Assembly (NCBI RefSeq): GCF_001038505.1
Contig: NZ_LDPY01000001.1
Coordinates: forward strand, 3,596,001-3,660,000
Source: Puniceibacterium sp. IMCC21224
GTDB taxonomy: Bacteria; Pseudomonadota; Alphaproteobacteria; Rhodobacterales; Rhodobacteraceae
Direction of reading: 5' to 3'
Length of the DNA: 64,000 nt
Shown here piece after piece: positions 37,355-54,206 of this stretch. Position 1 is the stretch's first letter. Every line of letters begins with the position of its first letter. The notes beneath the pieces were generated by a model. It was not told the DNA's origin, searched no databases, and saw nothing but the letters and a program-made list of their open reading frames with translations. The position numbers and the translations under genes were made by a program.

Positions 37355-37498
37355 ATGAGTTCTAACCACCTGAGCACGATCGAATACGCAGCACCGGTGC
37401 GCGAGTTTAAGGTCGCGACCAACTATGGCGCGGATGGCCGCTATGACGGTGAAACATTTACCGACCCGACCGACCCGACCGGCGTGATCTGGCCGTGA
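37355..37498 (+). CDS. 47-residue phage protein
   Basis: This short protein (MSSNHLSTIEYAAPVREFKV ... DPTDPTGVIWP) has GGAG 9 bases before the ATG at 37355 and overlaps the next gene by 4 bases. A truncated copy is kept in the remnant at 54081-54206. Function is unknown. Confidence 0.55.
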   Translation: MSSNHLSTIEYAAPVREFKVATNYGADGRYDGETFTDPTDPTGVIWP

Positions 37499-37908
37499 AG
37501 CCACTTCTTCTCTGGATCTGGCATCTCGATACGCGCCTTACCGAGATCGTCCTGGGCAGCGTGACGTTTGCCAGGGGGGCCACGCTGGCACTGCCGGGCG
37601 GCATGATGGCGGGAGAATCTTATCGTGGTTTCACCTTCCTGCCCGAAGCGATCTGGGCGGTTGTGTTCGCCGTCTTCGGCCTTGCGCAGCTCGGCGCGGT
37701 GGTGATCAACGGTCGCTGGCGTCGCTCCCCGGCAATCCGGGCGACAGGAGCGCTGTTCGGGGTCTGGTCCTTTGCGGCTCTCACAGCGGGATTTGCGGCT
37801 TCAAGTGGTCTGAGCCTGGCGTCGGGCCTCTACGGGATACTGACCCTCTGGTCTGCCTATTGCCTGATCAATATCTCCAGCAAGACGGCAAAGCGCACTG
37901 ATGATTGA
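37495..37908 (+). CDS. small multi-pass membrane protein, possible holin
   Basis: This 137-residue protein has three or four hydrophobic spans (IWAVVFAVFGLAQLGAVVI, ALFGVWSFAALTAGFAA, LASGLYGILTLWSAYCLI). The GTG start at 37495 is coupled to the previous stop. Size and topology fit a holin or another phage membrane protein. The endolysin is far away at 9829, so the link is weak. A frameshifted copy exists at 53675-54087. Confidence 0.6.
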   Translation: MKPLLLWIWHLDTRLTEIVLGSVTFARGATLALPGGMMAGESYRGFTFLPEAIWAVVFAVFGLAQLGAVVINGRWRRSPAIRATGALFGVWSFAALTAGFAASSGLSLASGLYGILTLWSAYCLINISSKTAKRTDD

Positions 37909-38185
37909 GTTTCTAAAGGATACGTTATCCCCGGAGCTGGTTGTGGCGTTCGGCTCAGCATTGGCCGCAGTCATTACGGCTCTGCTTGTGAGGGGAAAGG
38001 CGAATTCCACACCCTCGGCCGCGAGTATCGTGCAGCAGGCTATCCGACCGGAAACCGAAGCCGAGATCCGCGCGGCCGACGCCTTGGAGAAGATCGCAGC
38101 ATCGACCACAAAGATGGCGGAGAGCGTTGATCGGATCGAGCGCCAGACGTTTGTGCTGGTCGATCGTGGCAACAGAAGTCGCTGA
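37901..38185 (+). CDS. small single-pass membrane protein with helical C-terminus
   Basis: This 94-residue protein has one N-terminal transmembrane span (PELVVAFGSALAAVITALLV) and a helical, charged C-terminal part (ETEAEIRAADALEKIAASTT). This is the topology of small holins or inner-membrane spanins. It overlaps the previous gene by 8 bases. Its TGA is the start of the right-end hairpin. An intact copy lies at 53398-53682. Confidence 0.6.
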   Translation: MIEFLKDTLSPELVVAFGSALAAVITALLVRGKANSTPSAASIVQQAIRPETEAEIRAADALEKIAASTTKMAESVDRIERQTFVLVDRGNRSR

Positions 38186-38229
38186 GGCGTCAGGAAATGG
38201 AGGCGGTTGGCATTTTCCTGACGCCTCAG
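38182..38229. terminator. right-end bidirectional hairpin
   Basis: CTGAGGCGTCAGGAAA and its perfect complement TTTCCTGACGCCTCAG enclose 16 bases. The left arm contains the stop of the last gene. The stem is strong enough to end transcription from either side and would insulate late phage transcription from host DNA. The same structure is kept at 53354-53401. Confidence 0.75.
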
Positions 38230-38238
38230 TTCAGAATT

Positions 38239-38288
38239 GTTTGGCCAAAGCTGATGTCATTCTTGGCCAAAGCTGATGGCGCGCCACA
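38239..38288 (+). repeat. prophage right end with two transposase-binding-like repeats
   Basis: Two direct copies of TTGGCCAAAGCTGATG (38241-38256 and 38263-38278; 22-bp period) are followed by GCGCGCCACA ending at 38288. Mu-type right ends carry 22-bp transposase sites in tandem and finish in CA. The second copy in the window has the same layout and ends in the same GGCGCGCCACA, which fixes the boundary. The bases after it (CCTGA) would be the target-site duplication. Confidence 0.7.
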
Positions 38289-38314: not shown

Positions 38315-39094
38315 ATGGGCCACATTAGGCTCGGAACCTTGCCACAGTCCAGGAAATGGCGCGATGTGGTTCGGTTACTGGACTCGTCGGCGCCGCTGGA
38401 GGATGTGGCTCAAGCTGCTGCGAGAGCATCTGAGACAGATCTGCGCCGGGCGTCTGACGATCCCAACTTTCAGTTCGTGACGCAATTGCTTGTCCATTTG
38501 CCGTTGCTGGCACGCGCGCCGGGATACGAAGCTGCGATGGCGGACCTTGGGATCGCGGCGAGTTCGCTGGACTCGCTTACCGGGCTGCTGGCCGGTGTGA
38601 ACGACGCCATCGGTCAACATGCATTTGAACAGGGCCGGTCCTCGGACGCCGGAGAGATGGCCAAAGCGGCCTTGATCGAGAGCCTGTCCGCACAGATGCG
38701 CGACCGCCTGCCGACGTTGTTTGATCCGACACCGCAGGAAATCCGCAAGGTTCTGGCCTCGTTTGCCAGCGGTCAGAACTTTGCCATTCTGGCACGGCAT
38801 TTCTTTGCCCGGCTGAGCTATCGTTCACTCGACTATTATCTGAGCCGGGAGCTGGCGAACCATACCGGCGCGGGCAAACGGTTTGCCGACGATGCGCGCC
38901 GCACGGAATTCAGCCGCGCCCTGTCGCAACACACATTCGAGGCCTCCCGGACCGTTGAGACGTACGCAGGCGGCTGGTACGGCAAGACGGTCTGGAAGGA
39001 GCAAACCCTCAGTCAGGACAAGATCAACGACTTTACGCGCTATGCGTTCAAGAAAATGAGGTCCGAGCTTGGGCGGCGCCGCACCTCTGCCTGA
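38315..39094 (+). CDS. uncharacterised partner protein of the QueC-like gene
   Basis: This 259-residue, helix-rich protein starts MGHIRLGTLPQSRKWRDVVR, so Gly would be the N-terminal residue after Met removal. It ends WYGKTVWKEQTLSQDKINDF followed by a basic tail GRRR. I recall similar N-termini beside QueC-like genes in other genomes but no named family. The ATG has GGGAG upstream and lies 26 bp from the prophage right end. The next gene begins inside it (25-bp overlap), so the two are translationally coupled. QatB-like or a modified-substrate role is possible; neither is shown by sequence. Confidence 0.7.
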   Translation: MGHIRLGTLPQSRKWRDVVRLLDSSAPLEDVAQAAARASETDLRRASDDPNFQFVTQLLVHLPLLARAPGYEAAMADLGIAASSLDSLTGLLAGVNDAIGQHAFEQGRSSDAGEMAKAALIESLSAQMRDRLPTLFDPTPQEIRKVLASFASGQNFAILARHFFARLSYRSLDYYLSRELANHTGAGKRFADDARRTEFSRALSQHTFEASRTVETYAGGWYGKTVWKEQTLSQDKINDFTRYAFKKMRSELGRRRTSA

Positions 39095-41000
39095 GCTTGT
39101 CGTGACCTGCTTCGCGCCGCTCGCAGATCGCGAGGGCGACGAAAAGCTGCGGTTCGAGATTGACGGGAAGGTCAAATCCATCTCGCTGCGCATTAGCCAG
39201 ATGAGCCGTCAGCTGGTGACGCATCTGCCGGATATGGCAATCGACTTGATCGAACTGGCGGCCTTTGTTTATGGCATCGATTCCAGTGTTAGCCGGGGCG
39301 GGCTCGCCGATCAGCAGATGGGCGCCAAATGGCACCGAAGTTTCTTGGTCGAAGTCCCGGTGCGCGCGCTCGACCGCTGGTCCGATCCTGATTTGAAGCG
39401 AGAGTTGGAGGAGACGTTGATGTTTCTTTCTGGCGACCGGTTTACGTTCCGGTTTGTTCAGATCCAGGGCGGCAGTTCTGGTCCGACAGGGTATTTCGAT
39501 TTTGGCCCGAACTCTTCTTGGAAACCAGATTCGGTGCTGATGTTTTCGGGAGGGCTGGATTCCTTCGCTGGCGCGCTGGAGGAAATCATCGACCGCAGGC
39601 ACCGGGTTGCCCTGATCAGCCACTTCTCGTCCACCAAGATCGCGCCGATCCAGAACGCGCTGCAGAAGCATATGGCCCAAGAACTCGGAACCGAGATGCT
39701 GAAACACATTCCGATGCGCGTTCAACTGGGCGGCGGAACCAACGCCGAAGGCACCCACCGCTCCCGGTCTTTCTTGTTCGCAGCCCTAGGCATGGCGACA
39801 GCCGTGGCATTTGGCAGGGAACGCGTGTCATTTTATGAGAACGGTGTTGTCAGTCTCAACTTACCGCCGGTGGGCAATGTGCTGGGCACGCGGGCAACGC
39901 GGACGACACATCCACAAACGCTGCAACGGTTTCAGAGCCTCTTCAGCCGGATTTTCGACGCCTCGTTGCGCGTCGACAACCCGTTCTTCTGGCGCACCAA
40001 GACAGATGTTGTCGAGACGATTGCGCGGCTCGGAATGGCGGACCAGATTGCGTTTACCCGCAGCTGTGCGGATGTCCACAATCAGACCAAGCAACACCCC
40101 CATTGCGGTCGCTGCTCGCAATGCATTGATCGCAGGTTCGCCATCATGGCTGCGGACCTCACAGCCTTCGATCCCGAGGAGGCTTACCGCATTGACCTGA
40201 TGACCGGACGTCGGGAGCGTGTTCAGGACAAGGAGGTGGCGTTGTCCTACGTCCGCAGTGCGCAAGGCTATGAGATGATGTCAGGCACAGATCTTGTCGC
40301 GCAATATCCAGCGATCCTGAACGCCGTGGATCATCTTGGAGAACCACCGGACACCGCGCTCACACGGATGGCGTCACTCCTGCGACGGCACGGGCGATCC
40401 GTTTCAACGGTAATGCGCAAGGAGCTTGCGGCCCAACGCCCGGATCAGTTTTCCCTGGACAGCTTGGCTCGTATGTTCGGCGATTTGCAGCGGGCACAGG
40501 TTATGCCAGCAGAGCAAATAATTGTGTCGAATGTTGACACCATTGAACGTGGAGAACCTGCCTCTCTGGTGTTCGATCGCAAGCGCAAACTCGTTGTAAT
40601 AAACGACGCGATTACGATCAAGGGTACCGCCTATCGCCTGCTGGACTGTCTTGCCAACGAATTTCTTGCCGGTGCTGGGAAAGGTCTTGATCTTCTGGAC
40701 TACCCGATGACGGACGCATGGAAACTGGCGAAGTGCGCGGGCCTGTCGGACGATGCAGCCCTGCGTCAAGCTGTGAGCCGGTCCCGCAAGCAACTGGGAC
40801 TTAAATTTTCCGCAGCGGGGTTCGAGGCCGCTGAAGGCGAAGCGCTGATCGAGAACATCCCATGGAGCGGTTATCGCCTGAACCCGGAACTGGCGAAGAT
40901 CCGGATGCTTTCTGCAAAGGACAATCATTCGAAGACGTCAAAATCATCCTCCTCCGGCAGCGGCCCCCGCTTGCGGAAACGCGCCAGCAGATCGACCTGA
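39069..41000 (+). CDS. QueC-like ATP-dependent synthetase fused to OmpR-type winged helix
   Basis: This 643-residue protein begins at a TTG (39069) with GAGG upstream. An N-terminal region of about 120 residues is unassigned. The PP-loop motif MFSGGLDSFAGAL lies at about 158-170. A QueC-type zinc site of four Cys (CADVHNQ...HPHCGRCSQC, about 332-351) follows. After a linker, residues about 505-605 show a trans_reg_C-like winged helix (TIKGTAYRLLDCLANEFLAG ... LRQAVSRSRKQLGL ... ALIENIPWSGYRLNP). QueC makes preQ0; QueC-like proteins also occur in Qat and type IV CBASS defence. A direct fusion to this DNA-binding class is unusual. Its end overlaps the convergent recombinase gene by 76 bp. Confidence 0.8.
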   Translation: MGGAAPLPELVVTCFAPLADREGDEKLRFEIDGKVKSISLRISQMSRQLVTHLPDMAIDLIELAAFVYGIDSSVSRGGLADQQMGAKWHRSFLVEVPVRALDRWSDPDLKRELEETLMFLSGDRFTFRFVQIQGGSSGPTGYFDFGPNSSWKPDSVLMFSGGLDSFAGALEEIIDRRHRVALISHFSSTKIAPIQNALQKHMAQELGTEMLKHIPMRVQLGGGTNAEGTHRSRSFLFAALGMATAVAFGRERVSFYENGVVSLNLPPVGNVLGTRATRTTHPQTLQRFQSLFSRIFDASLRVDNPFFWRTKTDVVETIARLGMADQIAFTRSCADVHNQTKQHPHCGRCSQCIDRRFAIMAADLTAFDPEEAYRIDLMTGRRERVQDKEVALSYVRSAQGYEMMSGTDLVAQYPAILNAVDHLGEPPDTALTRMASLLRRHGRSVSTVMRKELAAQRPDQFSLDSLARMFGDLQRAQVMPAEQIIVSNVDTIERGEPASLVFDRKRKLVVINDAITIKGTAYRLLDCLANEFLAGAGKGLDLLDYPMTDAWKLAKCAGLSDDAALRQAVSRSRKQLGLKFSAAGFEAAEGEALIENIPWSGYRLNPELAKIRMLSAKDNHSKTSKSSSSGSGPRLRKRASRST

Positions 41001-41989
41001 CGCCCGGGGGCAACAGATCCGTAGGATCGGAATGTTGTGAGAACGTCATCGTGTCCCATGTTCTGCGACCAGGCCTTGTAGTCCTCTGGCGTGCGGCAAT
41101 GGTCCTTGGCCAATTCCGCAAGAGTGTCCCGGACGCGATGCGGCGAAAACGGTGGCAGACCGGCATCGACAAAGGCCTGCTTGAACACCCGGGCCGCCGA
41201 CGAGGGCGAGGCCCAGGGCGCCCGGTCGATCCCGAGGGCAGAAAACTGCCGTGATGTGCCGACACCGACCCGCGTTTTGGGAAGCAGCGGATCGCTGTCC
41301 GAGAAGTGGTGCTGCGTCCTAAGTTCCAAGATCCAGTCCCGAACGAACTGCTCGCAGGGTGCGAGCATGGGAAAGAAGGCCGTGGTGAAGCTCTTGCCGA
41401 ACTTCGTGTCAACAGAGCGCCCATCGAAATGCACGCAGGCATTGGCCAGATCGACATGACCCAGCCGCAACGTGATCGCCGCCCCCTCGCGGGACCCGGT
41501 GAGAAAGAGAAAGGCAACCAACGCCCGGTCCCGACGTTGCAACACCGTCTCATCCGGCATCCCGCTGAGCAGCCGAACAACCTGCGCAGGCGACGCGTGT
41601 GGTTTCCAGCAGGACGTGCGTCGCGCGTTGTCAGATTTGCGATCCGGACCAAGGAATTCGATGTCGGACCGCGAGATCCGGGACTTGTAGCCGGGCTGAT
41701 CGGCGAGCCAACTGTAGAAGGTCTGGACTTCGCGCAGGACTCCGTTGACCGACGTCGAGGACAGTTTTGCGCCGGTGCGTTGATTTTGCTGAGAAGAGAG
41801 ACGGCGCTTAAAACTGCGGGCGCGCTCCGAATGGAAGCTGCGGAAATCCTTGCCGTCGAGAAAGGACTCATAGGTCGAGATCGCGGCGGCGGATTTGTCG
41901 ACCGAGGCATCCGACAGCCCCTTGGCGTCCTTGCGCCAGATCAGGTATTTGCGCTTAATGCGCAGGTTATCCGAGTTGCGTTTTGTCAT
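40925..41989 (-). CDS. tyrosine recombinase of a three-gene module
   Basis: This 354-residue recombinase has an N-terminal SAM-like domain (residues about 25-105) and a catalytic domain with Arg in FLTGSREGAAITL, HRVR in FSPHRVRDTLAE, His in QNMGHDDVL and Tyr in TTFRSYGS. The start at 41989 has GGAGG about 10 bases upstream; a longer start at 42034 is less likely. It overlaps the preceding HTH/zinc-ribbon gene and would cut and join att-type sites. It converges on the QueC-like gene, so it may move that cassette. Confidence 0.88.
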   Translation of the reverse strand: MTKRNSDNLRIKRKYLIWRKDAKGLSDASVDKSAAAISTYESFLDGKDFRSFHSERARSFKRRLSSQQNQRTGAKLSSTSVNGVLREVQTFYSWLADQPGYKSRISRSDIEFLGPDRKSDNARRTSCWKPHASPAQVVRLLSGMPDETVLQRRDRALVAFLFLTGSREGAAITLRLGHVDLANACVHFDGRSVDTKFGKSFTTAFFPMLAPCEQFVRDWILELRTQHHFSDSDPLLPKTRVGVGTSRQFSALGIDRAPWASPSSAARVFKQAFVDAGLPPFSPHRVRDTLAELAKDHCRTPEDYKAWSQNMGHDDVLTTFRSYGSVAPGRQVDLLARFRKRGPLPEEDDFDVFE

Positions 41990-42473
41990 GGGTCGAGGCC
42001 TCCGGTGTCGAGGTATCATTTGAACGGGGATCAAGCAGAGACACTAATCTTGGATTGGCCTGTTGCACTGCGACCTCAATCTTGGCGCGAATGACCTCCA
42101 GATCGGCCCGCTTTACCACCTTGTTAAGGATGCAGCCGCAGGCCGGGCAGAGCGCCTTCAGCATACCGGTGGTCGCCGTCTGCTGGGAGTATTCAGCAAA
42201 TTTGCCATCCGGTTCCTGCGGTTCCTTGCAGCCGAGGCAATAGAGATGATGCAGCGCCAGACGCGTTCTGACCTTCGCCCGGCGATGGCCGAGGAAGTCC
42301 TTCAGATCCGCCCCCCGGATCAGCCAAGGCACGCGGGACTGATCCGCGATCAGCCCCTTGTCCTTGATCCAGCGGATCACAGTCTGGCGATGACGGCCCA
42401 GCGCCTCTGCTGCCTCCCAGATGGTGTAGATCTGATGCGTCTTGATCCGGTTCGGTGAGGGAACGCCTGCCAT
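41967..42473 (-). CDS. HTH protein with zinc ribbon, excisionase-like
   Basis: This 168-residue protein has an N-terminal helix-turn-helix (YTIWEAAEALGRHRQTVIRW), then a YCLGCKEP ... LCPACGC pair of CxxC motifs making a zinc ribbon. The frame is open further upstream, but the ATG at 42473 has GGAGGGG and overlaps the previous gene by one base. Such proteins may direct a recombinase to its site. Confidence 0.75.
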   Translation of the reverse strand: MAGVPSPNRIKTHQIYTIWEAAEALGRHRQTVIRWIKDKGLIADQSRVPWLIRGADLKDFLGHRRAKVRTRLALHHLYCLGCKEPQEPDGKFAEYSQQTATTGMLKALCPACGCILNKVVKRADLEVIRAKIEVAVQQANPRLVSLLDPRSNDTSTPEASTHDKTQLG

Positions 42474-42676
42474 CACGCCCCCTCCACCGGCAGCGGACCA
42501 GAGGTGTTCTGGCAGACCTGCGCCGCCTCCCAAGCCTCCACATCCTCTTCGCGATACAACACCCGAGCCCCGATCTTCAGGAACCGAGGGCCCTTGCCCA
42601 GCCACCGCCACTGCTCCAAAGTACGCGGCGACATCTGCCACCGCGCCGCCAACTGCTGTTGTGTCATCTTGCCCAT
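42473..42676 (-). CDS. small HTH_17/AlpA-type regulator
   Basis: This 67-residue protein (MGKMTQQQLAARWQMSPRTL, then RFLKIGARVLYREEDVEAWE) is a winged HTH of the MerR/AlpA-excisionase class. It is the first gene of the leftward three-gene unit, with repeated TTGGTTCG sites just upstream of its start that it may bind. Confidence 0.78.
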   Translation of the reverse strand: MGKMTQQQLAARWQMSPRTLEQWRWLGKGPRFLKIGARVLYREEDVEAWEAAQVCQNTSGPLPVEGA

Positions 42677-42687
42677 GCAAAACCTCT

Positions 42688-42725
42688 TTGGTTCGGCCCA
42701 GACCGAGTTGGTTCGATCCGGTTCG
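42688..42725. promoter_or_regulatory. direct repeats before the recombinase module
   Basis: TTGGTTCG occurs at 42688 and 42708, with CCGGTTCG at 42718. The spacings of 20 and 10 bp put all three on one face of the helix. They lie 12-50 bp before the first gene of the module and look like operator or recombinase arm sites. The rest of 42677-43012 contains no gene that I can support; a short frame there continues past the broken transposase. Confidence 0.4.
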
Positions 42726-43012
42726 TCTGCAAAGGATGCGTCTTTCGATCCCCAAAGTATGTGAGTTCGGGCACGGAAGACGTGACCACAGAGCATGGTA
42801 AGCAACTGAAAACTCTCACTTAAGATCATCAAAGTGTGATCTTTTCCAGAAAAATTGTGATAGGGTTAAAATGAACTGATCTTCATAGCCTCGGCTGAAA
42901 TTAGTGAATGGACAGGGCGAAAATTTCTGAAAATGCCCCCAAACTTCCATTTCAAGCCGACCGTGGCTTGCGTAATTGGCCAAACTGACTGCAAATGATC
43001 GCGGAGCGTTGG

Positions 43013-43629
43013 CGCATGGGCATAGCGCTCGACCTGTAGCGCAAGACGCGGTGCCAGGCGGTTGTAGTTCTGGCGCAGCGTGATCCCGCCTTCGTCTGCC
43101 AAGGCGACAAGCTGAAGACGAGCCTTCTCGTACAGGCGTGCATCGGTTGGGTGGGCGATGTTCTTTTCCATCACCGTCGTGTCCACGGATATACGCGACA
43201 GACTGCGGTCCTCGACTGTCCCCGACGCCCGCCCGGCCTCGATGGTCTTGGTGAGCAGCCACTCGGCCCCTTCCTCTCCGATCCGCTTGCGCCACCGTGT
43301 CAGCGAGGACGGATCGATCGGCGGGCGGTGCTGGAAGAAAACCTCGCCGGTAAAATGCTGATAATGGGGTTTTCGACCCAGGGGGCGACAACGCCTTCGT
43401 CGGAGAGGCGATAGGCGTGCTGGAGATACAGCAGCCCCGCGACCGGGCGCGGCGATGTGGCTGGCCGCCCAGTCGTGGAGGGAAAGAAACCAGCCCATTC
43501 CGTCTCGAAGAACTCCCAGTCGATCAGCTTTTCCAGCTTCGCCAATGCGTGGCGCAGATCGATCATGTCGGTCAGGCGGGGGCGCAGGAGGTCATCCTGC
43601 TCTTCAGCGCGGGGATGAGGCTTCATCAC
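43013..43629 (-). pseudogene. IS5-family transposase remnant (frameshifted, truncated)
   Basis: The start (MMKPHPRAEEQDDLLRPRLT ... GLLYLQHAYRLSDEGVV) and the next part (HYQHFTGEVFFQHRPPIDPS ... VDTTVMEKNIAHPTDARLYE) are consecutive pieces of one IS5-type transposase in two different frames, joined near 43380. The second part holds the first catalytic Asp in SVDTT. The gene stops being recognisable after VERYAHA near 43013, so the last two-fifths is missing. It cannot encode an active enzyme. Confidence 0.8.
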
Positions 43630-44297: not shown

Positions 44298-47200
44298 TTA
44301 GCCGATGAATATGAAATCATCCACCGTTAGGTCAGCAGCAGCCACGCCTGTTACCTGAATAATATGGCCGTTGAAGCTCATTGTGACCCCCGTGGCAATT
44401 GGACCTGCCCCAACATCGATCAAGGCATCTGTGATGTCTAATGCATTGACACGCCCCTGAAGGCCTTGGCCAGTCACGCCCGTTAGCCTGATCTGGTCCA
44501 GCCCATCCTCGAAATCCAAGACAAGGTCGACTTCGCCGCCCGTCAGTTCATTAAAGATAAACAAATCCGCGCCAGCGCCGCCGTTCATAGTGTCATTGCC
44601 CGCACCTCCATTCAGGCGATCTTCGCCTCCCCGACCCAGGATCAGATCGTCGCGCCCGCCACCAGCAAGGAAATCGTCGCCGTCTCCACCGTCCACGGTA
44701 TCGTCGCCTTCGCCGCCGCCTATGGCATCCGATCCGCTGCCGCCGTCGATGGAATCCTGCCCGGTACCACCACCGAGGCTGTCGTTGCCGCCTTCGCCGA
44801 GGATTGTGTCCTGTCCGAAGGAGGCGCCAATCGTGTCGTCACCCTCGCCGCCGCGAAGGAAATCGTTGCCATCCCCACCGGCGACTACGTCGTCGTCCCC
44901 GCCACCAGCTACGGAATCGTCACCTGCACCACCACCGATCGTGTCGGAGCCGCTCTGCCCCAGCAGGGTGTCGTTGCCGGGACCGCCACCGATATTGTCG
45001 CGTCCCGGGCCGCCCTCCACGCTGTCGTTTCCGGCGCCGCCCGAGATGTTGTCGTCTTCAGAACCGCCGAGCAGGGTGTCGTCGCCGTCCTGGCCGATCA
45101 GCCCGTCGTCGCCCGCAGCACCGTCGATCATGTCGTTGCCGTTGCCACCTTCGACCCGGTCTTCTCCATCGCCGCCGTTTAGGGAATCGTTGCCTTCACC
45201 GCCGACCAGTGTGTCGTCGCCTGCACCGCCCGACACTGTGTCGTCACCCGCGCCGCCGTCGATCAGGTCGTCGCGGTCGGTGCCACGAAGGCTGTCCGCT
45301 TCGTCAGCCCCGGTGAGTGTTTCAAGAACATCCGCCTCAGTCACCGGATCGACCTGTGGGTCCGTGGGGGGCACGAAGGCCGGAATATCCTGTGTTGCCT
45401 CGGCAAAGGTGACGTCGCCAGACAGAGCCACGTCGAGCACGGTCGCCTCGAAGGCAAAGGTGCCGGGCACCAGACCTGCATTCAGCGCGGCCTGTTCGGC
45501 TGCGGCGCGGACATCCGGGTCGAGATCGTCCAGCGTCAATGTACTGGCTGGGAAGCTGAGGTCGGTGAAGGTTGCGGTGCTTTCGCCGTCTTGGTAGTCA
45601 AAGAACGACGATTGCTGGTCGATCCGCCAGGCGTCGGCGAAGATTCCGTAGATTTCTTCGGCCACCACGGGTTGGGTCAACACGGTGCCGTCACGTAGCA
45701 TAAAGTCGTTGGCCGGATCGCCATCGGCATTGCCAAAGATCCCCTCGACCCGCCCGCCGCGATCCGCGCCAAGGAAGTTCTGGATGGTCAGGAAATCGGT
45801 GAGGCCGGTGCGCACGCCGACCACCACGCCATCGCCGAATTCATTGGTGATGACGTAGGTGTTGAAGTCGCGGTAGATTGTGCCGTCGCCCAGCACCAGC
45901 GTTTCACCAAAGTCGAGCGTGACCGGATTGCCGTTGATGACCAGCGGGATCTCGCGGTCGGCGTAGATACCGACGGTGACGCCGTCGATCATGGTGGCGA
46001 CGGCAGAATTGACCGACACCAGGTCGCTGCCGGGCAGTGGGGTCTGGCGTACCTGGAATTCGAAGGAGCCGTCGGCGCCCCGGAACATCACGAATTCGCC
46101 CACCGCCTGAAAGGCATAGCCAAGGCTGTCGAAGGTCTGGATATGCGGATCGCCAAAAGTGCGGGGAACGGGCGGGATGGCTTCTGGGGAGTTTGAGTCG
46201 CCGCCGAGTGGTGATGGTTCCAAAGGCGATTGATCAGACCCCCGAGGAGGTGTATCAGAATTTACTAATTCATCCAGAATTATCTTGCCGACATTTTTCG
46301 CTTTCTCGACCCAGCCCGGCACGCGTCCCACTTCTAAATAGCTCGGAGCCTCTAGACGTTCGCCTGAAACCGCCCCCACGGCCTCGTAAACACCTTGCTT
46401 TGCTAAGTATGCGCCACGTTCCGCTATCCCAAATCCAACACCCTTTGCACTCGTATTTACCAATGATGTTAGTGGAGTGCCTGCAACGATTGCAGATCCA
46501 ACGGCTACCGCTCCATAACCCACGGCGTATTTTCCCACGCCAGCAGCGAAATCACCAGCACGCTCGCCAAATCCGTAATTCGCAGCATCTTGGCCAAAAG
46601 GATCATTCAGTAAAACTGGAATATTTTGAGCAAATCGATTCAAATTTGACATATCTCCAGTTAACCAAAGCGGATCTTCACTAAGAAACCGTCCTAGCTC
46701 GGTGTCATAGCTCCGCGCCCGCATGAACAGCAGGTCGTCTGCGTCTTCAGCCACACCCAGCGCGCCGTTGAACTCAAACACGTTGGCTAAACCCTCGACC
46801 TCCAGCAGCTCATCCCCAAAAGGCGTGTAGGCGTAGCTGTTGACCACGCCTCCACCAGCGCCGGTCATCGTTGTCACCGACCCTACCGCATCCGCATCGT
46901 AGAATGCCGTTGCGCCGCCGATCTCTGCCGATACCAGCCCTAGACCGTGGGCATACGTCGCGCTGACCGCCCCGCCGGTGTATTCGGCCACCACATTGCC
47001 CAGACCCAGCGGATCGACCAGATAGGCGGTCTCGACCCCGGCGTCGGTCTTTGACACCCGGTTGCCGAAAATGTCGTAACCGAACTCCATCACAGTTCCG
47101 TCCGGCCCGGTCACCGACACCAGACGGTTCTCTACGTCGTAGACATAGGCCGTCGTGCCCGCAGTATCGGTGCGCGAGATCATGTTGCCATCGGCGTCGT

Positions 47201-50200
47201 AGGCAAAGCTCGCATCCCCGACTTGGGTGTACTGGTTCAGCGCATTGGCGGAATAGAGCGTCGTCACCCCATCCTCGACCACCTGCGTGCGGTTGCCCGC
47301 CGCGTCGTATTCGTACTCCAAGCGGGTGTCGGATATCGCCGGATTGACCGAGACAAAATCTGCCGAGGTCAATTGGCCGATGGCGTCATAGTCATAGCTC
47401 CAAGTCCCGTCCTGACTCTGGTTCGTGACACGCTGGCCTGCATCGTCATAGGTGTAGGCGTTGAAGGAATGGATCGTGCTGTCGGCATCCAGATTGTCGA
47501 TCCGCGTCAGGCGCCCGGCGGTGTCGTAAGAATAGGTCGAGACGGTGCCATTGCCATTTTCCTCTCGCATCAGATTGCCCGCCGCGTCGTAGTCATAGGA
47601 GACGATGGGGCCGTCGGCATTGCTCAGCCCGGTCAAGCGGCCCAATGCGTCGTAGGCATAGAACACCTCGTACCCGGCGCCGTCCGAAAGCGAGGCGCGC
47701 AGACCGGCGTCGTTGTAGGTGTAGATCAGCGACGTGCCGCCGGGATAGTCGATCTGAGTGACCCGCCCTGCTGAGTCGTAGTCCAGAGTCGTGGCGCCAT
47801 CGGCCCCGGTGGCCGAAACAAGCAGTCCCGCGTCGTTGTAGCTATAGGACGTCGATCCCGCCGAGCTGTCGGATTCCGACAGCAGACGCCCGCGCGTATC
47901 GTAGGTGTAGCTGACATCATCGCCGCGCCGGTTGGTGTAACCGGTCAGGTTGCCTTGGGCGTCATAGTCGAATTCAAGCGCGGTGCCATCCGGCCAGGTC
48001 GCCGTTGTGATGCGCCCGCCCGTGTCGTAGGCAAAGCTGCGGGTGTTGCCGCCTGCATCTGTGAAGCTGCTAGGTGCGTCGCCAATGGCATCATAAGCAA
48101 AGGCCAGGGTCGCGCCGTTGGCATCCGTCAGTCCCACCAGCCGACCCAGATCGTCAAAGGCAAAGAGGGTTTCAGACCCGTCTGCAGCTCGAACGCCGGT
48201 CACACCGCCGGTGTCGTCGAACAAAAGCTGCGACGCCCCACCGGCGCCATCCGTTACCCGACCCAACAACCCGCCCGGTAGCAAGTCGATCTGGGTTGCG
48301 GTCCCGGCGCCATTTGTGATCGTCAAACCGCCGGCTGCATTGTAGGCAAAAGCTTCGGTCTGCAAACCGCTGCCATAGCTGGCCGAGGACAGCCGACCCG
48401 ATGCGTCATAGCTGAACTCCGACAGGATGCCGCCCGGGGCCATATTTGTGACCATATCGCCCATCGTATCGTAGGCGAAGGTGGTCTGTCCCTCCGGTCG
48501 CGTTACCACCTGAAGCTGGCTGTTGGCATCATACGCAAAGGCGATGGATTGACCGTCCGCGTCCTCAATGCCGATCAGCGTGCCATCCGCCGCGCGGTCA
48601 AAGCTAAGCCCGGCACCATTCGGCCCAGTTAGATCAGTAATCTGCATGGCGCTGTCGTGGCTTGCCACGATCCGCTGTCCGTCGCTCAGATCCATACTCA
48701 GAAAGACGCCAGCGATATCGAATTGCAGCGCGCTGCCATTCTCCAACGTCAATGTATAGCCATTCGCCGTCTGTGACAGCGCACCATCAAAGCCTGTGGT
48801 GGCCGCGTAGCGCCCGTCAACCTGTCGCTCGAACGTCGCGCGCGCAGGAGAGGTTGCTCCTAGTACAGCGCCTGACAGTGATACCGACCGGTCGGCTGAG
48901 CTCGACAACGTGTAAAGTGCCGCAGAGCCCAGCGACAATGCTTGCAGCGCCGCTAGGTCGGTCAGCCCCTTCAATTGGACAGTACCGCCGTCAATGGCCA
49001 GTCCTATGTCCGCAACACTTGCCCAGCCCTGACCTAGTGACCCGACCGCTCCGCGTTCTGCCAGCGACCCGTAGTCACCCGCGGCATCAATTGCGTGAGC
49101 CAGAGCCGCCGTGGCGCTCGATCCGTTCAGTCCCAGCGACACCAAACCTTCGGAAAAGTTTGCTAGAGTCGAAACCAGACTGCCTACGCTTGACCCAAAC
49201 TGCGTCGCGAAATTCGTCTCCATCCGGTCTAGAACGCTTGTTTCAACAAAGGCAGGAAGCAGGGCGATCGCCCGTTCCGCGATATCCGACACAGCACTCC
49301 TGTCGGCAATCTGAACCCGAGCGCCAAGCGTCGAACTAGGCCCTGCACTGCCACGAATTGAAACATCAAGCGTGCTGATTTGGCCTGTCGCCAAGTTATT
49401 AGCTAGCAGGAAAGCAGTCGGACCAAAGCTTTGCCCGAGAGAATCCGCAACGACACCGGCATCGGCGGTGACGGCCAGCAACAAAGGCGAGACGATGCCC
49501 GCAACGGGCGTTTCCTGCCCCGCGATTGCGCCAACGTCGATCGTTACACTTGCGACACCGCTTTGACCGGGTGTCAGGCTTTCCGGGAGCGTCAATGAAA
49601 GATCGATGGAACCTTGGTTCTCGACATCAAAAGTCGTCAAGTCGATGGACGTATCACCAGACGCAAAGTCGATCTGGCTGATGACGCCTCGGACATTACC
49701 GGCGCTGTCGTAAAAATCATCGATCCGGATCACGTCCGTACCGACCTGGACCAGCACATCCTGTGCATTGTTCAGATCCCGAACGATGGTCACACCACTG
49801 GACCTGATTGAGTTGTCGAACAGGATGCGCCCGCCGTCGGGACCTGTGGAGTTTTCGTTGATGACGTCGCTGCCGAAACCCGGCCCAAAGACATAGGTGT
49901 CAAAGCCGGTCCCGCCTGCAAGCGAGTCATTGCCCCCAACGCCGATCAGCGTGTCATCCAGTCCGAAACCGGTCAGCGTGTCGTCGCCTTCCGTGCCCAG
50001 GATCGGGATCTCCAGCGTCGTCAGGTCGATGGACGTATCACCAGACGCAAAGTCGATCTGGCTGATGACGCCTCGGACATTACCGGCGCTGTCGTAAAAA
50101 TCATCGATCCGGATCACGTCCGTACCGACCTGGACCAGCACATCCTGTGCATTGTTCAGATCCCGAACGATGGTCACACCACTGGACCTGATTGAGTTGT

Positions 50201-51572
50201 CGAACAGGATGCGCCCGCCGTCGGGACCTGTGGAGTTTTCGTTGATGACGTCGCTGCCGAAACCCGGCCCAAAGACATAGGTGTCAAAGCCGGTCCCGCC
50301 TGCAAGCGAGTCATTGCCCCCAACGCCGATCAGCGTGTCATCCAGTCCGAAACCGGTCAGCGTGTCGTCGCCTTCCGTGCCCAGGATCGGGATCTCCAGC
50401 GTCGTCAGGTCGATGGACGTATCACCAGACGCAAAGTCGATCTGGCTGATGACGCCTCGGACATTACCGGCGCTGTCGTAAAAATCATCGATCCGGATCA
50501 CGTCCGTACCGACCTGGACCAGCACATCCTGTGCATTGTTCAGATCCCGAACGATGGTCACACCACTGGACCTGATTGAGTTGTCGAACAGGATGCGCCC
50601 GCCGTCGGGACCTGTGGAGTTTTCGTTGATGACGTCGCTGCCGAAACCCGGCCCAAAGACATAGGTGTCAAAGCCGGTCCCGCCTGCAAGCGAGTCATTG
50701 CCCCCAACGCCGATCAGCGTGTCATCCAGTCCGAAACCGGTCAGCGTGTCGTCGCCTTCCGTGCCCAGGATCGGGATCTCCAGCGTCGTCAGGTCGATGG
50801 ACGTATCACCAGACGCAAAGTCGATCTGGCTGATGACGCCTCGGACATTACCGGCGCTGTCGTAAAAATCATCGATCCGGATCACGTCCGTACCGACCTG
50901 GACCAGCACATCCTGTGCATTGTTCAGATCCCGAACGATGGTCACACCACTGGACCTGATTGAGTTGTCGAACAGGATGCGCCCGCCGTCGGGACCTGTG
51001 GAGTTTTCGTTGATGACGTCGCTGCCGAAACCCGGCCCAAAGACATAGGTGTCAAAGCCGGTCCCGCCTGCAAGCGAGTCATTGCCCCCAACGCCGATCA
51101 GCGTGTCATCCAGTCCGAAACCGGTCAGCGTGTCGTCGCCTTCCGTGCCCAGGATCGGGATCTCCAGCGTCGTCAGGTCGATGGACGTATCACCAGACGC
51201 AAAGTCGATCTGGCTGATGACGCCTCGGACATTACCGGCGCTGTCGTAAAAATCATCGATCCGGATCACGTCCGTACCGACCTGGACCAGCACATCCTGT
51301 GCATTGTTCAGATCCCGAACGATGGTCACACCACTGGACCTGATTGAGTTGTCGAACAGGATGCGCCCGCCGTCGGGACCTGTGGAGTTTTCGTTGATGA
51401 CGTCGCTGCCGAAACCCGGCCCAAAGACATAGGTGTCAAAGCCGGTCCCGCCTGCAAGCGAGTCATTGCCCCCAACGCCGATCAGCGTGTCATCACCTGC
51501 AAGCCCGGAAATCGTATCTGCGTCGGGAGTTCCCGGAAGCTCCTCGGGAGAGGATGTGCCTGTAATATCCAT
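44298..51572 (-). CDS. giant secreted RTX / RHS / vWD chimeric protein
   Basis: This 2424-residue protein starts at ATG 51572 with GAGGG upstream (an earlier ATG at 51674 is less likely). Residues about 10-655 are near-identical 128-residue units, each an RTX motif (GGNDSLAGGTGFDTYVFGPG) plus an HCBP-related unit (DVIRIDDFYDS ... ISQIDFASGD). Residues about 660-1000 are unassigned. About 1000-1630 are YD/RHS repeats ending in an RHS core (RARSYDTELGRFLSEDPLWL). About 1800-1995 is a vWD domain (RTFGDPHIQTFDSLGYAFQA). About 2085-2340 are many GGxGxDxxx repeats, then a type-I-secretion-like C-terminus (VTGVAAADLTVDDFIFIG). It should be exported by a type I system and fold on Ca2+. No secretion or immunity gene is adjacent. 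Confidence 0.88.
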   Translation of the reverse strand: MDITGTSSPEELPGTPDADTISGLAGDDTLIGVGGNDSLAGGTGFDTYVFGPGFGSDVINENSTGPDGGRILFDNSIRSSGVTIVRDLNNAQDVLVQVGTDVIRIDDFYDSAGNVRGVISQIDFASGDTSIDLTTLEIPILGTEGDDTLTGFGLDDTLIGVGGNDSLAGGTGFDTYVFGPGFGSDVINENSTGPDGGRILFDNSIRSSGVTIVRDLNNAQDVLVQVGTDVIRIDDFYDSAGNVRGVISQIDFASGDTSIDLTTLEIPILGTEGDDTLTGFGLDDTLIGVGGNDSLAGGTGFDTYVFGPGFGSDVINENSTGPDGGRILFDNSIRSSGVTIVRDLNNAQDVLVQVGTDVIRIDDFYDSAGNVRGVISQIDFASGDTSIDLTTLEIPILGTEGDDTLTGFGLDDTLIGVGGNDSLAGGTGFDTYVFGPGFGSDVINENSTGPDGGRILFDNSIRSSGVTIVRDLNNAQDVLVQVGTDVIRIDDFYDSAGNVRGVISQIDFASGDTSIDLTTLEIPILGTEGDDTLTGFGLDDTLIGVGGNDSLAGGTGFDTYVFGPGFGSDVINENSTGPDGGRILFDNSIRSSGVTIVRDLNNAQDVLVQVGTDVIRIDDFYDSAGNVRGVISQIDFASGDTSIDLTTFDVENQGSIDLSLTLPESLTPGQSGVASVTIDVGAIAGQETPVAGIVSPLLLAVTADAGVVADSLGQSFGPTAFLLANNLATGQISTLDVSIRGSAGPSSTLGARVQIADRSAVSDIAERAIALLPAFVETSVLDRMETNFATQFGSSVGSLVSTLANFSEGLVSLGLNGSSATAALAHAIDAAGDYGSLAERGAVGSLGQGWASVADIGLAIDGGTVQLKGLTDLAALQALSLGSAALYTLSSSADRSVSLSGAVLGATSPARATFERQVDGRYAATTGFDGALSQTANGYTLTLENGSALQFDIAGVFLSMDLSDGQRIVASHDSAMQITDLTGPNGAGLSFDRAADGTLIGIEDADGQSIAFAYDANSQLQVVTRPEGQTTFAYDTMGDMVTNMAPGGILSEFSYDASGRLSSASYGSGLQTEAFAYNAAGGLTITNGAGTATQIDLLPGGLLGRVTDGAGGASQLLFDDTGGVTGVRAADGSETLFAFDDLGRLVGLTDANGATLAFAYDAIGDAPSSFTDAGGNTRSFAYDTGGRITTATWPDGTALEFDYDAQGNLTGYTNRRGDDVSYTYDTRGRLLSESDSSAGSTSYSYNDAGLLVSATGADGATTLDYDSAGRVTQIDYPGGTSLIYTYNDAGLRASLSDGAGYEVFYAYDALGRLTGLSNADGPIVSYDYDAAGNLMREENGNGTVSTYSYDTAGRLTRIDNLDADSTIHSFNAYTYDDAGQRVTNQSQDGTWSYDYDAIGQLTSADFVSVNPAISDTRLEYEYDAAGNRTQVVEDGVTTLYSANALNQYTQVGDASFAYDADGNMISRTDTAGTTAYVYDVENRLVSVTGPDGTVMEFGYDIFGNRVSKTDAGVETAYLVDPLGLGNVVAEYTGGAVSATYAHGLGLVSAEIGGATAFYDADAVGSVTTMTGAGGGVVNSYAYTPFGDELLEVEGLANVFEFNGALGVAEDADDLLFMRARSYDTELGRFLSEDPLWLTGDMSNLNRFAQNIPVLLNDPFGQDAANYGFGERAGDFAAGVGKYAVGYGAVAVGSAIVAGTPLTSLVNTSAKGVGFGIAERGAYLAKQGVYEAVGAVSGERLEAPSYLEVGRVPGWVEKAKNVGKIILDELVNSDTPPRGSDQSPLEPSPLGGDSNSPEAIPPVPRTFGDPHIQTFDSLGYAFQAVGEFVMFRGADGSFEFQVRQTPLPGSDLVSVNSAVATMIDGVTVGIYADREIPLVINGNPVTLDFGETLVLGDGTIYRDFNTYVITNEFGDGVVVGVRTGLTDFLTIQNFLGADRGGRVEGIFGNADGDPANDFMLRDGTVLTQPVVAEEIYGIFADAWRIDQQSSFFDYQDGESTATFTDLSFPASTLTLDDLDPDVRAAAEQAALNAGLVPGTFAFEATVLDVALSGDVTFAEATQDIPAFVPPTDPQVDPVTEADVLETLTGADEADSLRGTDRDDLIDGGAGDDTVSGGAGDDTLVGGEGNDSLNGGDGEDRVEGGNGNDMIDGAAGDDGLIGQDGDDTLLGGSEDDNISGGAGNDSVEGGPGRDNIGGGPGNDTLLGQSGSDTIGGGAGDDSVAGGGDDDVVAGGDGNDFLRGGEGDDTIGASFGQDTILGEGGNDSLGGGTGQDSIDGGSGSDAIGGGEGDDTVDGGDGDDFLAGGGRDDLILGRGGEDRLNGGAGNDTMNGGAGADLFIFNELTGGEVDLVLDFEDGLDQIRLTGVTGQGLQGRVNALDITDALIDVGAGPIATGVTMSFNGHIIQVTGVAAADLTVDDFIFIG
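49636..51492 (-). repeat. 4.8 copies of a 384-bp tandem repeat
   Basis: The unit encoding the 128-residue RTX/HCBP block repeats with a period of exactly 384 bp (compare 49897, 50281, 50665, 51049 and 51433). The copies look base-for-base identical except at the outer edges. This indicates recent expansion or ongoing homogenisation, and copy number may be unstable or mis-assembled. Confidence 0.92.
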
Positions 51573-51791
51573 TTGGAAGCCCTCTAAAAAAATAATCTCT
51601 ACCGATTCTTTTGACTGTATTTCAGACAATCGCACGGGACAAACAATTTGAAGACAAGCAGCGTCTGCGGACATCTACGAGCAGACCTTTGGAATTAAAA
51701 AACTTAATTTCAGATACTTATGTTGAAAGTCAACGCTGATGAACCTTACGTACGTTTTTCGCGGGCAGTCGGTTAATTGTAAGTTGACGCA

Positions 51792-52961
51792 TCAATCAAT
51801 ATTTGAGCCTCGAGAACTCAATTTTTCGGCCATTATCTCCGCTGCATCTCTCAGCGGATGATCTGCGATGTGTGCGTAGCGCTGTGTCGTCATCGGATTG
51901 GTGTGACCGAGCAGACGGCCAACGATTGCCAGACTCATCCCTCTGGATACAAGCTGCGACGCGTGGGTGTGCCGGTTGTCGTGGATGCGGTAGTCGGTGA
52001 TGTCGGCCATGGTCAGCAGGGACCGCCAGAACTTCTTGAGGTCAACGATCGGTTTGTCAGCGGATCGGCCCGGAAACACGATATCTTCGGCAGCACTGCT
52101 TTGCCTGATCGCTTTCAGCAACGCCACCGCGGCCTTTGACAACGGGAGGTGTTCGGTCCGCTTTTGCTTTGTATGATGCGACGGCTTGGTCCAAACACCC
52201 CGCTCCAGATCGAAGTTCTCCCAATGGGCCGTCAGGACTTCGCCAATCCGCGCGCCGGTCAGCAGTTGCAGGCGGATCGCATTGGCCGCGGTCCGGTTGG
52301 GATGCTTTTCCAGAGCAACACTCAGACGAGTCAATTCGCCTTCTCCGAGCCAGCGATGCCGCTTTTCCTCGTGGAACTTTCCGACACCCTTTGCGGGATT
52401 GTCAGATCGCATCCCCCATCTGATCGACAGTTCGAACATCTTGGACAACAATGAGAGCGCGCGATTGGACTGATAGGGTGTGGCACTCAGGGAATTGTGG
52501 AAGGCCTGAATATCCTTGTGCCGGACGTCGGTCACCTTTTTCGAGGCGAATTTAGGCAGGATCAGGCGATCGAGCATGGAGCGGTCATTGGCGACGCTTT
52601 TGGGTCGCTTCTTTGGCACGGCGTGTACTTCGAGGTACTGATGGCAGAGATCCTGCATCGTTGGCGCATTGCGGACCTCCTTGGCTTCGGCGACCGGGTC
52701 AGCACCTCGAACCACGTCCGAGAGCAAACCTGTTGCGATCGCTCTCGCTTGGGCAAACGACATCAATGGTCCGTGCTGACCTATTGTCTTTCGCCGGGAT
52801 TGCCCGGAGCTTCGGACCCTGTACTGGACGAGGTACGATTTGGAACCGTTTGGCTTCACTCGGACGCCGAAGCCGGGGAGCGATGCGTCCCAAAAGACTG
52901 TCTCGACTTTCGGGTTTGGTATCTTGTCGATGACTGACTTGGATAGACGTTGCTTGGGCAT
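51792..52961 (-). CDS. phage-type tyrosine integrase (DUF4102 N-terminal)
   Basis: This 389-residue integrase has a DUF4102 arm-binding domain (FWDASLPGFGVRVKPNGSKS), a core-binding domain (about 100-185) and a catalytic domain with Arg in LLTGARIGEVLTAHWENF, HDNRHTHASQLVSRGMS, GHTNPMTTQRYAHI (final Tyr). It lies 170 bp from a tRNA-Lys 3' fragment, the usual pairing of a tRNA-targeted integrase and its attachment site. It is oriented into the island on its left. Confidence 0.93.
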   Translation of the reverse strand: MPKQRLSKSVIDKIPNPKVETVFWDASLPGFGVRVKPNGSKSYLVQYRVRSSGQSRRKTIGQHGPLMSFAQARAIATGLLSDVVRGADPVAEAKEVRNAPTMQDLCHQYLEVHAVPKKRPKSVANDRSMLDRLILPKFASKKVTDVRHKDIQAFHNSLSATPYQSNRALSLLSKMFELSIRWGMRSDNPAKGVGKFHEEKRHRWLGEGELTRLSVALEKHPNRTAANAIRLQLLTGARIGEVLTAHWENFDLERGVWTKPSHHTKQKRTEHLPLSKAAVALLKAIRQSSAAEDIVFPGRSADKPIVDLKKFWRSLLTMADITDYRIHDNRHTHASQLVSRGMSLAIVGRLLGHTNPMTTQRYAHIADHPLRDAAEIMAEKLSSRGSNID

Positions 52962-52966
52962 CTTTT

Positions 52967-53002
52967 GCTTACCTGTCAGACTTGGGTAAGCACAGGGTAA
53001 GC
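52967..53002. repeat. GGTAAGC repeats at the integrase start
   Basis: GCTTACC (52967) is inverted relative to two direct GGTAAGC copies (52985, 52996; 11-bp spacing). They lie just upstream of the integrase ATG between gene and attachment site, as expected for arm-type integrase or excisionase sites or an autoregulatory operator. Confidence 0.4.
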
Positions 53003-53130
53003 TTCAGACGCAGAAAATGATAGTAGGAAAAGTTGACGTCGAGGAGGTGGACCTGAGATTTTTACATATTTTCAGATATTTAAAGTACTGAACAGAAAAT
53101 CCAAGAAATCTGTAGAAGCGCGGACCGTAA

Positions 53131-53177
53131 GACTTTTAATCAGTAGGTCTCGGGTTCGGATCCCGACGGGCTCACCA
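53131..53177 (+). other. tRNA-Lys(UUU) 3' fragment, probable attachment site
   Basis: The sequence has the anticodon loop CTTTTAA (53133-53139), the variable region, a complete T arm (TCGGG TTCGGAT CCCGA) and acceptor end CGGGCTCACCA. There is no matching 5' half: no GAGCCCG acceptor strand and no D arm upstream, and the anticodon stem is unpaired. This is the duplicated tRNA end left by integration. The intact tRNA should lie at the island's left end, on the + strand. Confidence 0.75.
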
Positions 53178-53294: not shown

Positions 53295-53344
53295 TGTGGC
53301 GCGCCCTCAGCTTCTGGACGGAATGATATGACCTTCTGGACAAA
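53295..53344 (-). repeat. remnant right end with divergent end repeats
   Basis: The 50 bp align without gaps to 38239-38288 and keep the two-repeat layout, but the repeated core is GTCCAGAAG instead of GGCCAAAGC. The terminal GGCGCGCCACA and the CATTC spacer block are conserved. The next bases inward are essentially identical in the two prophages, so the divergence is confined to the presumed transposase sites. Confidence 0.65.
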
Positions 53345-53353
53345 AATTCTGAA

Positions 53354-53401
53354 CTGAGGCGTCAGGAAAATGCCAACCGCCTCCATTTCCTGACGCCTCA
53401 G
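53354..53401. terminator. right-end hairpin of the remnant
   Basis: The same perfect 16-bp inverted repeat as at 38182-38229 (CTGAGGCGTCAGGAAA and its complement), fully conserved in both arms. Confidence 0.7.
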
Positions 53402-53682
53402 CGACTTCTGTTGCCACGATCGACCAGCACAAACGTCTGGCGATCGATCCGATCAACGCTCTTCGCCATCTTTGTGATCGATGCTGCGATCTTCTCCAAG
53501 GCGTCGGCCGCGCGGATCTCGGCTTCGGTTTCCGGTCGGATAGCCTGCTGCACGATACTCGCGGCCGAGGGTGTGGAATTCGCCTTTCCCCTCACAAGCA
53601 GAGCCGTAATGACTGCGGCCAATGCTGAGCCGAACGCCACAACCAGCTCCGGGGATAACGTATCCTTTAGTAACTCAATCAT
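53398..53682 (-). CDS. copy of the 94-residue single-pass membrane protein
   Basis: The gene is intact and differs by only a few residues from the copy at 37901-38185 (MIELLKD for MIEFLKD; KSVDRIDRQ for ESVDRIERQ). It is the only complete gene in the remnant. Without a known promoter it may not be expressed. Confidence 0.6.
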   Translation of the reverse strand: MIELLKDTLSPELVVAFGSALAAVITALLVRGKANSTPSAASIVQQAIRPETEAEIRAADALEKIAASITKMAKSVDRIDRQTFVLVDRGNRSR

Positions 53683-54087
53683 CAGTGCGCTTTGCCGTCT
53701 TGCTGGAGATATTGATCAGGCAATAGGCAGACCAGAGGGTCAGTATCCCGTAGAGGCCCGACGCCAGGCTCAGACCACTTGAAGCCGCAAATCCCCCTGT
53801 GAGAGCCCCAAAGGACCAGACCCCGAACAGCGCTCCTGTCGCCCGGATTTCCGGGGAGCGCGCCAGCGACCGTTGATCACCACCGCGCCGAGCTGCGCAA
53901 GGCCGAAGACGGCGAACACAACCGCCCAGACCGCTTCGGGCAGGAAGGTGAAACCACGATAAGATTCTCCCGCCATCATGCCGCCCGGCAGTGCCAGGGT
54001 GGTCCCCCTGGCAAACGTCGCGCTGCCCAGGACGATCTCGGTAAGGCGCGTATCGAGATGCCAGATCCAGAGAAGAAGTGGCATCAC
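53675..54087 (-). pseudogene. frameshifted copy of the multi-pass membrane protein
   Basis: Residues 1-75 match the gene at 37495, then one base is missing (GGCGCGCTCC where the intact gene has GGCGTCGCTCC near 53852), which throws the last two membrane spans out of frame. Confidence 0.8.
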
Positions 54088-54206
54088 GGCCAGATCACGC
54101 CGGTCGGGTCGGTAAATGTTTCACCGTCATAGCGGCCATCCGCGCCATAGTTGGTCGCGACCTTCAACTCGCGCACAGGTGCTGCGTATTCGATCGCGCT
54201 CAGGTG
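54081..54206 (-). pseudogene. 5'-truncated copy of the 47-residue gene
   Basis: The segment matches 37368-37498 and lacks the start codon. It is joined to the tail tip fragment through 15 unmatched bases (54207-54221). Confidence 0.7.

Follow-up and report, generated by a model that had tools for sequence, protein, structure and literature searches.

The stretch of DNA analysed in this study, a window of 64,000 nucleotides from Puniceibacterium sp. IMCC21224 (contig NZ_LDPY01000001.1, positions 3,596,001 to 3,660,000), carries two overlapping genes for a QatB-like partner protein and a QatC-like enzyme with an additional C-terminal domain, which we read, with a probability of roughly 60%, as a stand-alone QatB-QatC pair forming a mobile anti-phage cassette that has its own tyrosine recombinase and would work through conjugation of the partner and a DNA-directed winged helix. 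The partner gene (38315..39094, + strand) encodes 259 aa beginning with MGHIRLGTLP, comprising a short tail (residues 1-11, low model confidence) and a predicted all-helical domain, and the enzyme gene (39069..41000, +) encodes 643 aa from a TTG start inside the partner gene. The genes overlap by 26 bp, not by the 25 bp given in the first-pass annotation of this DNA, whose two open reading frames (ORFs), SGGLDS motif, four cysteines, LRQAVSRSRKQL and IPWSGYRLNP are all present, the last two both in the enzyme. The TTG start is also open in six relatives (L001-L006), L007 has a later GTG start, and the listed enzyme relatives are mostly 609-621 aa long compared with 643 aa in the window; the true enzyme start could lie up to 11 codons further downstream.

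Relationship of the two proteins to QatC and QatB

Among 7996 scored candidates, 1402 were relatives of the enzyme, the best 120 of which were listed, and an alignment of 80 rows was hand-picked from 110 length-filtered listed matches together with L009 and the window protein. Residues 8-472 (39090..40484, +) consist of a QueC-type PP-loop core with an N- and a C-extension, which is the architecture of QatC, and a structure search with the whole model returned matches that were filled by the QatC core. The PP-loop SGGLDS (residues 160-165; 39546..39563, +) and each of the four zinc-site cysteines (residues 333, 346, 349 and 352; 40065..40124, +) are identical in 80/80 rows, and the active-site Ser, Gly and Cys residues are conserved as well. 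Moreover, Thr277 (77/80 rows) and Thr279 (80/80 rows) correspond to Thr278/Thr280 of QatC, replacing Tyr/Asp.

The enzyme had been described as QueC-type from the window alone, and a Pfam QueC match, the PP-loop and the four cysteines confirm this, but the QatC models (PADLOC) score far higher. That it is an ordinary queuosine or metabolic QueC enzyme with a chance neighbour is extremely improbable: it shares the PP-loop and the four-Cys zinc site with canonical QueC (preQ0 synthase), and the source names call many of its relatives 7-cyano-7-deazaguanine synthase, yet it carries large extensions, the QatC Thr pair replaces the canonical substrate residues (PMC13279940), and linkage with queuosine biosynthesis genes, which the first-pass annotation had named as contrary evidence, did not appear, neither QueD nor QueE being found in the genome. 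The enzyme reaches 204 bits against the NCBIfam QatC equivalog, under its cut-off of 280 bits, and 23.3 bits against the canonical QueC equivalog TIGR00364, under its cut-off of 150 bits.

For the partner, 608 relatives were found among 4824 scored candidates (best 120 listed), and 78 rows were hand-picked for alignment from 116 length-filtered listed matches, to which L009 and the window protein were added. The conserved start is MGH (MGHxxLG), keeping the glycine of the MGTS start of QatB, and Gly2, invariant in this alignment partly through selection, is present in 110/119 by unselected count, so the MG start first noticed in the window is conserved. The partner had no match in Pfam, PADLOC, NCBIfam or PHROGs, and Foldseek returned nothing at E 0.001 or better; a sequence-profile search against PDB chains gave a chance match alone (E 0.53). 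VIA-align, the sole method to do so, matched it to a QatB chain (Qat comparison structures: PDB 9y01, 9y02, 9zee and 9vlk; PMC13279940). The fold is QatB-like rather than that of a CD-NTase, and PADLOC gave no match. As a QatB relative, the partner therefore points to a stand-alone QatBC pair and not merely to the minimal QueC-based pair initially proposed, a description that captured the conserved pair with its QueC-type enzyme and missed the QatB kinship of the partner.

With qatABCD the pair shares the QatC fold with both extensions, ATP loop, Zn site and Thr pair, and a helical QatB-type partner with an MG start directly upstream; it differs in the absence of qatA and qatD from the loci checked, in its position on a separate side of the tree (100/100), in the partner start (MGHxxLG vs MGTS) and tail (~11 residues vs 30-90), and in a winged helix, nuclease or other domain added to the enzyme. 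Cap9 of the type IV cyclic oligonucleotide-based antiphage signalling system (CBASS) likewise is a QueC-family enzyme beside a partner with an exposed N-terminal glycine, whereas here the partner is QatB-like and not a CD-NTase, the nucleobase-reading residues differ and the enzyme is much larger. Neither a stand-alone nor a winged-helix QatBC is described in the literature surveyed on QatBC, qatABCD, deazaguanylation and QueC-like defence, a survey that did not extend to two QatBC reports which PMC13279940 cites.

Linkage, distribution and tree of the pair

In a survey set of 390 genomes of the order, 34 had a QatC-like match and 23 a partner match. An MGH-type partner is present in 21 of the 34 QatC-like carriers; the other 13 have no such partner and are of canonical type in the nine of their loci that were inspected. 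The partner lies directly upstream of the enzyme on the same strand in 19/21 genomes, with a gap of -22 to +107 bp, the exceptions being G304, which is split over contigs (its enzyme fragment, at 44% identity and outside the tree, was counted with clade A), and the rearranged G155. A partner match without the enzyme occurs in two genomes: in G180 the partner frame is shortened, and in G276 the match is close to the end of a contig. Because each protein has many relatives and 19/21 pairs are directly adjacent, the pairing is not due to chance, and the two-gene unit described from the window proved to be conserved.

Using tblastn with seven QatA/QatD queries, neither protein was found in 26 long-type loci including the window (some of these loci span 2.3-5 kb), as had been remarked for the window itself, and the same search detected QatD in 13/13 and QatA in 11/13 canonical loci, four of which supplied queries; the canonical QatB in L105 is annotated short. 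QatBC alone is sufficient against some phages (PMC13279940), and the natural two-gene versions suggest that the QatBC core stands alone.

A tree of 48 QatC cores, unrooted and drawn from the midpoint, splits ten canonical Qat sequences from 38 long-type sequences with a support of 100/100. Clade A, the lineage of the window, comprises 13 of the 38 long-type rows. Group B (10 rows, ~31-38% identity to the window enzyme) has a winged helix too and is not one clade, L090 and L096 grouping with clade C at 96/92. Clade C (14 rows, ~704 aa) has an unannotated C-terminus and comes from Thiobacillus, Ralstonia, Stenotrophomonas and others according to the source names. Furthermore, a Leptospira noguchii plasmid pair (L103:2078-4722) combines a partner starting with MGHERLG and an enzyme that ends in a DpnII-MboI nuclease domain (PF18742, 1.2e-9) in the position of the winged helix; the branch of this enzyme is long and its placement in the tree is unsure. 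An MGH-type partner stands next to the enzyme in clade A, group B and the Leptospira pair, as it does in the single clade C locus that was inspected (L009). Within clade C, the enzymes P0289-P0300 have equal scores to the query, with Geobacter, Ralstonia and Hydrogenophaga among the sources; because equal query scores occur in distant source organisms, this suggests a recent transfer among distant bacteria, the equality being one of score to the query only.

C-terminal module, substrate and proposed mechanism

Residues ~492-617 of the enzyme (40542..40919, +) have no counterpart in QatC and are moderately supported as an OmpR/PhoB-like winged-helix domain. The predicted topology (DSSP on the model) is three strands, a long helix, a helix, a long helix and a hairpin ending in GYRLNP, which corresponds to the strand-strand-strand-helix-helix-helix-hairpin order and final GYRL wing of trans_reg_C (PF00486), differing from this family in the absence of a receiver domain and of a Pfam match and in the fusion to an enzyme. 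A profile of 79 relatives aligned by hhalign to eight OmpR-type domains (PF00486 loci of the window's genome, chosen by a GY motif near the end) scored 29.4 over 86 columns with a probability of 46%, whereas 100 shuffles did not exceed 23.4 and segments not covering the domain did not exceed 16.5. The equivalent domain of group B matches the window-type domain at 1.5e-18 and reached 35.2 over 43 columns against OmpR (at most 16.1 in 40 shuffles). The OmpR-type C-terminus claimed at the outset is therefore upheld in its topology and in a profile score above shuffles, and not by a Pfam match. A search of the C-terminal profile against the PDB gave one weak TcpP match (E 0.88), which was set aside. 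The clade C C-terminus had no convincing match to the winged-helix profiles, scoring 17.8 against clade A (shuffles at most 16.3), 15.9 against group B (18.2) and 11.0 against OmpR (18.0). Taken together, the C-terminal modules hint at DNA as the target.

Regarding the substrate, the only QueC match in the window's genome (completeness 100) is this enzyme, and family searches found neither a QueD-family protein nor a QueE match there, although the QueC, QueD and QueE searches were positive in 12, 9 and 8 of 14 control genomes. QueD is present in four of the 34 carriers and a QueE match in the same four, and neither was detected in the remaining 30, the window's genome included; a QueC match of more than 180 bits occurs in 5/34 carriers, i.e., the four QueD carriers and G246, with weaker full-span matches in G354 and at a second place in G128. 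QueD is missing from 17/21 MGH-type carriers and from 13/13 other carriers, and it occurs in 100/390 genomes overall, so that carriers are not enriched for it (Fisher p 0.06, a guide only since the genomes are related). Since the QueE model performs weakly in this order, it could on its own miss QueE, and it is the agreement with QueD and QueC that carries weight. QatC-type enzymes no longer have the residues with which 7-carboxy-7-deazaguanine is read (PMC13279940), and this loss together with the lack of detectable QueD/QueE argues against host-made 7-carboxy-7-deazaguanine, which is probably not the substrate; it thus also argues against the carboxydeazaguanylation that PMC13329287 reports as proposed for QatC. 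The reaction of QatC on QatB could not be reconstituted and was left open (PMC13279940).

The deazaguanine chemistry suggested in the first-pass annotation accordingly appears doubtful here. Cap9 forms a deazaguanine conjugate on an N-terminal glycine (PMC13279940, PMC11996544), and with this precedent, the QatC proposal and the conserved active-site Ser, Gly and Cys residues, the enzyme might deazaguanylate its partner in the same manner, using 7-carboxy-7-deazaguanine that is imported from the medium, made by undetected genes or supplied by the phage. However, Thr/Thr stand where Tyr/Asp would read the base, as in QatC (PMC13279940), and synthesis genes went undetected in the host and in most other carriers, which makes this alternative rather improbable. 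We favour instead a mechanism in which the QatC-like enzyme would bind the QatB-like partner, whose Met1 would be removed to expose the N-terminal glycine; this glycine may then enter the PP-loop site for ATP-driven joining to an activated small molecule, probably other than host-made 7-carboxy-7-deazaguanine, as the occurrence of the pair in genomes without detectable QueD/QueE also argues. The winged helix might bring the complex to DNA, replacing a possible role of the DNA-acting QatA and QatD of qatABCD, and in the Leptospira pair the nuclease would act on DNA from the same position. More broadly, we tentatively propose, at somewhat less than even odds, that MGH-type QatBC constitutes a separate, widespread defence family that places a small molecule other than a 7-deazaguanine on the partner glycine and acts independently of QatA/QatD through a swappable DNA-acting C-terminal module, either a winged helix or a DpnII-type nuclease.

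Several points weigh against the stand-alone QatBC reading. The partner tail of ~11 residues, compared with ~63 in P. aeruginosa QatB, is the chief structural worry, and reaching the active site would therefore need a different geometry; in addition, the QatB-interface residues of the C-extension show no visible conservation. For the C-terminal piece of the window enzyme, no Pfam family was found at E up to 10, PF00486 included, and with a probability of 46% the support for the OmpR-like fold is moderate, the profile similarity being above chance and the topology right. With 20-39 bits (E 1.6e-9 to 7.1e-4), the four QueE matches score weakly, and substrate uptake or supply by the phage would bypass the absence of QueD/QueE in the host. 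Prophage-derived DNA up to position 38288 (27 bp before the partner start), repeated inverted at 53295-54173 with prophage-type genes, replaces the upstream sequence common to the relatives of the window copy, whose promoter may therefore be altered. Finally, complex formation, reaction, substrate, DNA binding and anti-phage activity are all steps that we infer.

Mobile setting and neighbouring features

The enzyme gene converges with the gene of a tyrosine recombinase (40925..42034, -; Pfam Phage_integrase 1.2e-7), which overlaps it by 76 bp and is conserved beside the pair. Next to it are encoded a helix-turn-helix protein that is probably a recombinase accessory (41967..42476, -, the conserved part of ORF 41967-42755; Pfam HTH_17 4.6e-8) and, in a second HTH_17 ORF (42473..42832, -; 2.3e-8), possibly the excisionase of this module. 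The recombinase faces the enzyme gene in 8/8 clade A loci (L001-L008), its frame being short in L001, L004 and L008. Recombinases at a minimum of 57% identity were found in 9/390 genomes (next match 45%), and these are the eight genomes with a clade A enzyme of at least 52% identity and a continuing contig, plus G304 with its enzyme fragment; in G128 the contig stops inside the enzyme gene. The neighbours of more distant recombinases include type I, III or IIG restriction-modification genes or Cas9 in 10/10 scanned loci, which were picked from 21 (L063-L083) for a long ORF after the recombinase; among the other 11 of these 21, the neighbour in L074 is not defence-like in appearance.

This tie of clade A to one recombinase and to tRNA genes would also fit a pair that serves the mobile element, by excision control or exclusion of rival elements, rather than phage defence of the host. 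We consider this improbable, because 12 loci of 7-17 kb from group B, clade C and the Leptospira plasmid retain both genes although a search for the clade A recombinase in them was negative, and because the neighbours scanned in group B loci, chosen by eye, include HsdM, Cas9 or a serine recombinase. D5_N-type genes are also among these neighbours: in all three loci scanned at this position (L092, L094 and L097), a D5_N/DUF5906 gene comes after the group B pair, and it may be either a third component or part of the element's machinery.

In 11/13 clade A loci with a left flank, the partner is preceded by a tRNA gene (Lys, Arg or Thr) whose end lies ~134-149 bp away, a placement absent from L002 and the window copy; on the right side of the element, a search for a repeat of this tRNA end gave nothing convincing. 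Between tRNA and partner, 11/13 clade A loci carry an exact tandem GGTAAGCnnnnGGTAAGC, which the window copy lacks beside the pair. Tandem direct repeats near promoters are the usual binding sites of OmpR-type domains, and the winged helix might accordingly be an autoregulator that represses or activates the cassette promoter without an effector role, leaving defence to the QatBC part alone. This is unlikely, as the same repeat occurs near integrases without the pair and is missing beside the pair in the window, and as the nuclease in the winged-helix position of the Leptospira enzyme is ill-suited to a regulator. The GGTAAGC tandem repeat was therefore set aside as a winged-helix operator; since it also adjoins integrases with an arm DNA-binding domain where no such pair is present, it more probably belongs to an attachment region. 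In L110 it lies ~270 bp from such an integrase without the pair, and in the window GGTAAGCACAGGGTAAGC is located at 52985-53002, 24 bp from the gene (51792-52961, -) of another tyrosine integrase, likewise with an arm DNA-binding domain, near which a fragment at ~53130-53175 resembles the 3' end of tRNA-Lys. Repeat matches on the viral contigs L111 and L113 lie in or beside other ORFs, and L112 has no integrase.

The cassette region is flanked by two inverted copies (37400-38288 and 53295-54173; 96% identical over 891 columns) with small prophage-type genes. Just upstream of the pair, within this duplicated block or bordering it, 38182-38278 holds a terminator-like perfect inverted repeat of 16 bp together with two identical direct repeats, also of 16 bp, that are 22 bp apart. 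In a Yoonia locus (L010:908-8165), tRNA-Lys, tandem repeat and partner start resemble clade A and are followed by other genes, including an SMC-like ORF (by eye), and by a fragment of the enzyme at 8001-8165. Beside the recombinase module of the window, two overlapping short ORFs at 42866-43629 with weak transposase-domain matches (DUF772, just below the Pfam cut-off) are probably a broken insertion sequence. Further downstream, 44298-51674 contains an ORF of 2458 aa in which RHS/YD-type repeats come after long, almost identical calcium-binding-type repeats, both named by eye.
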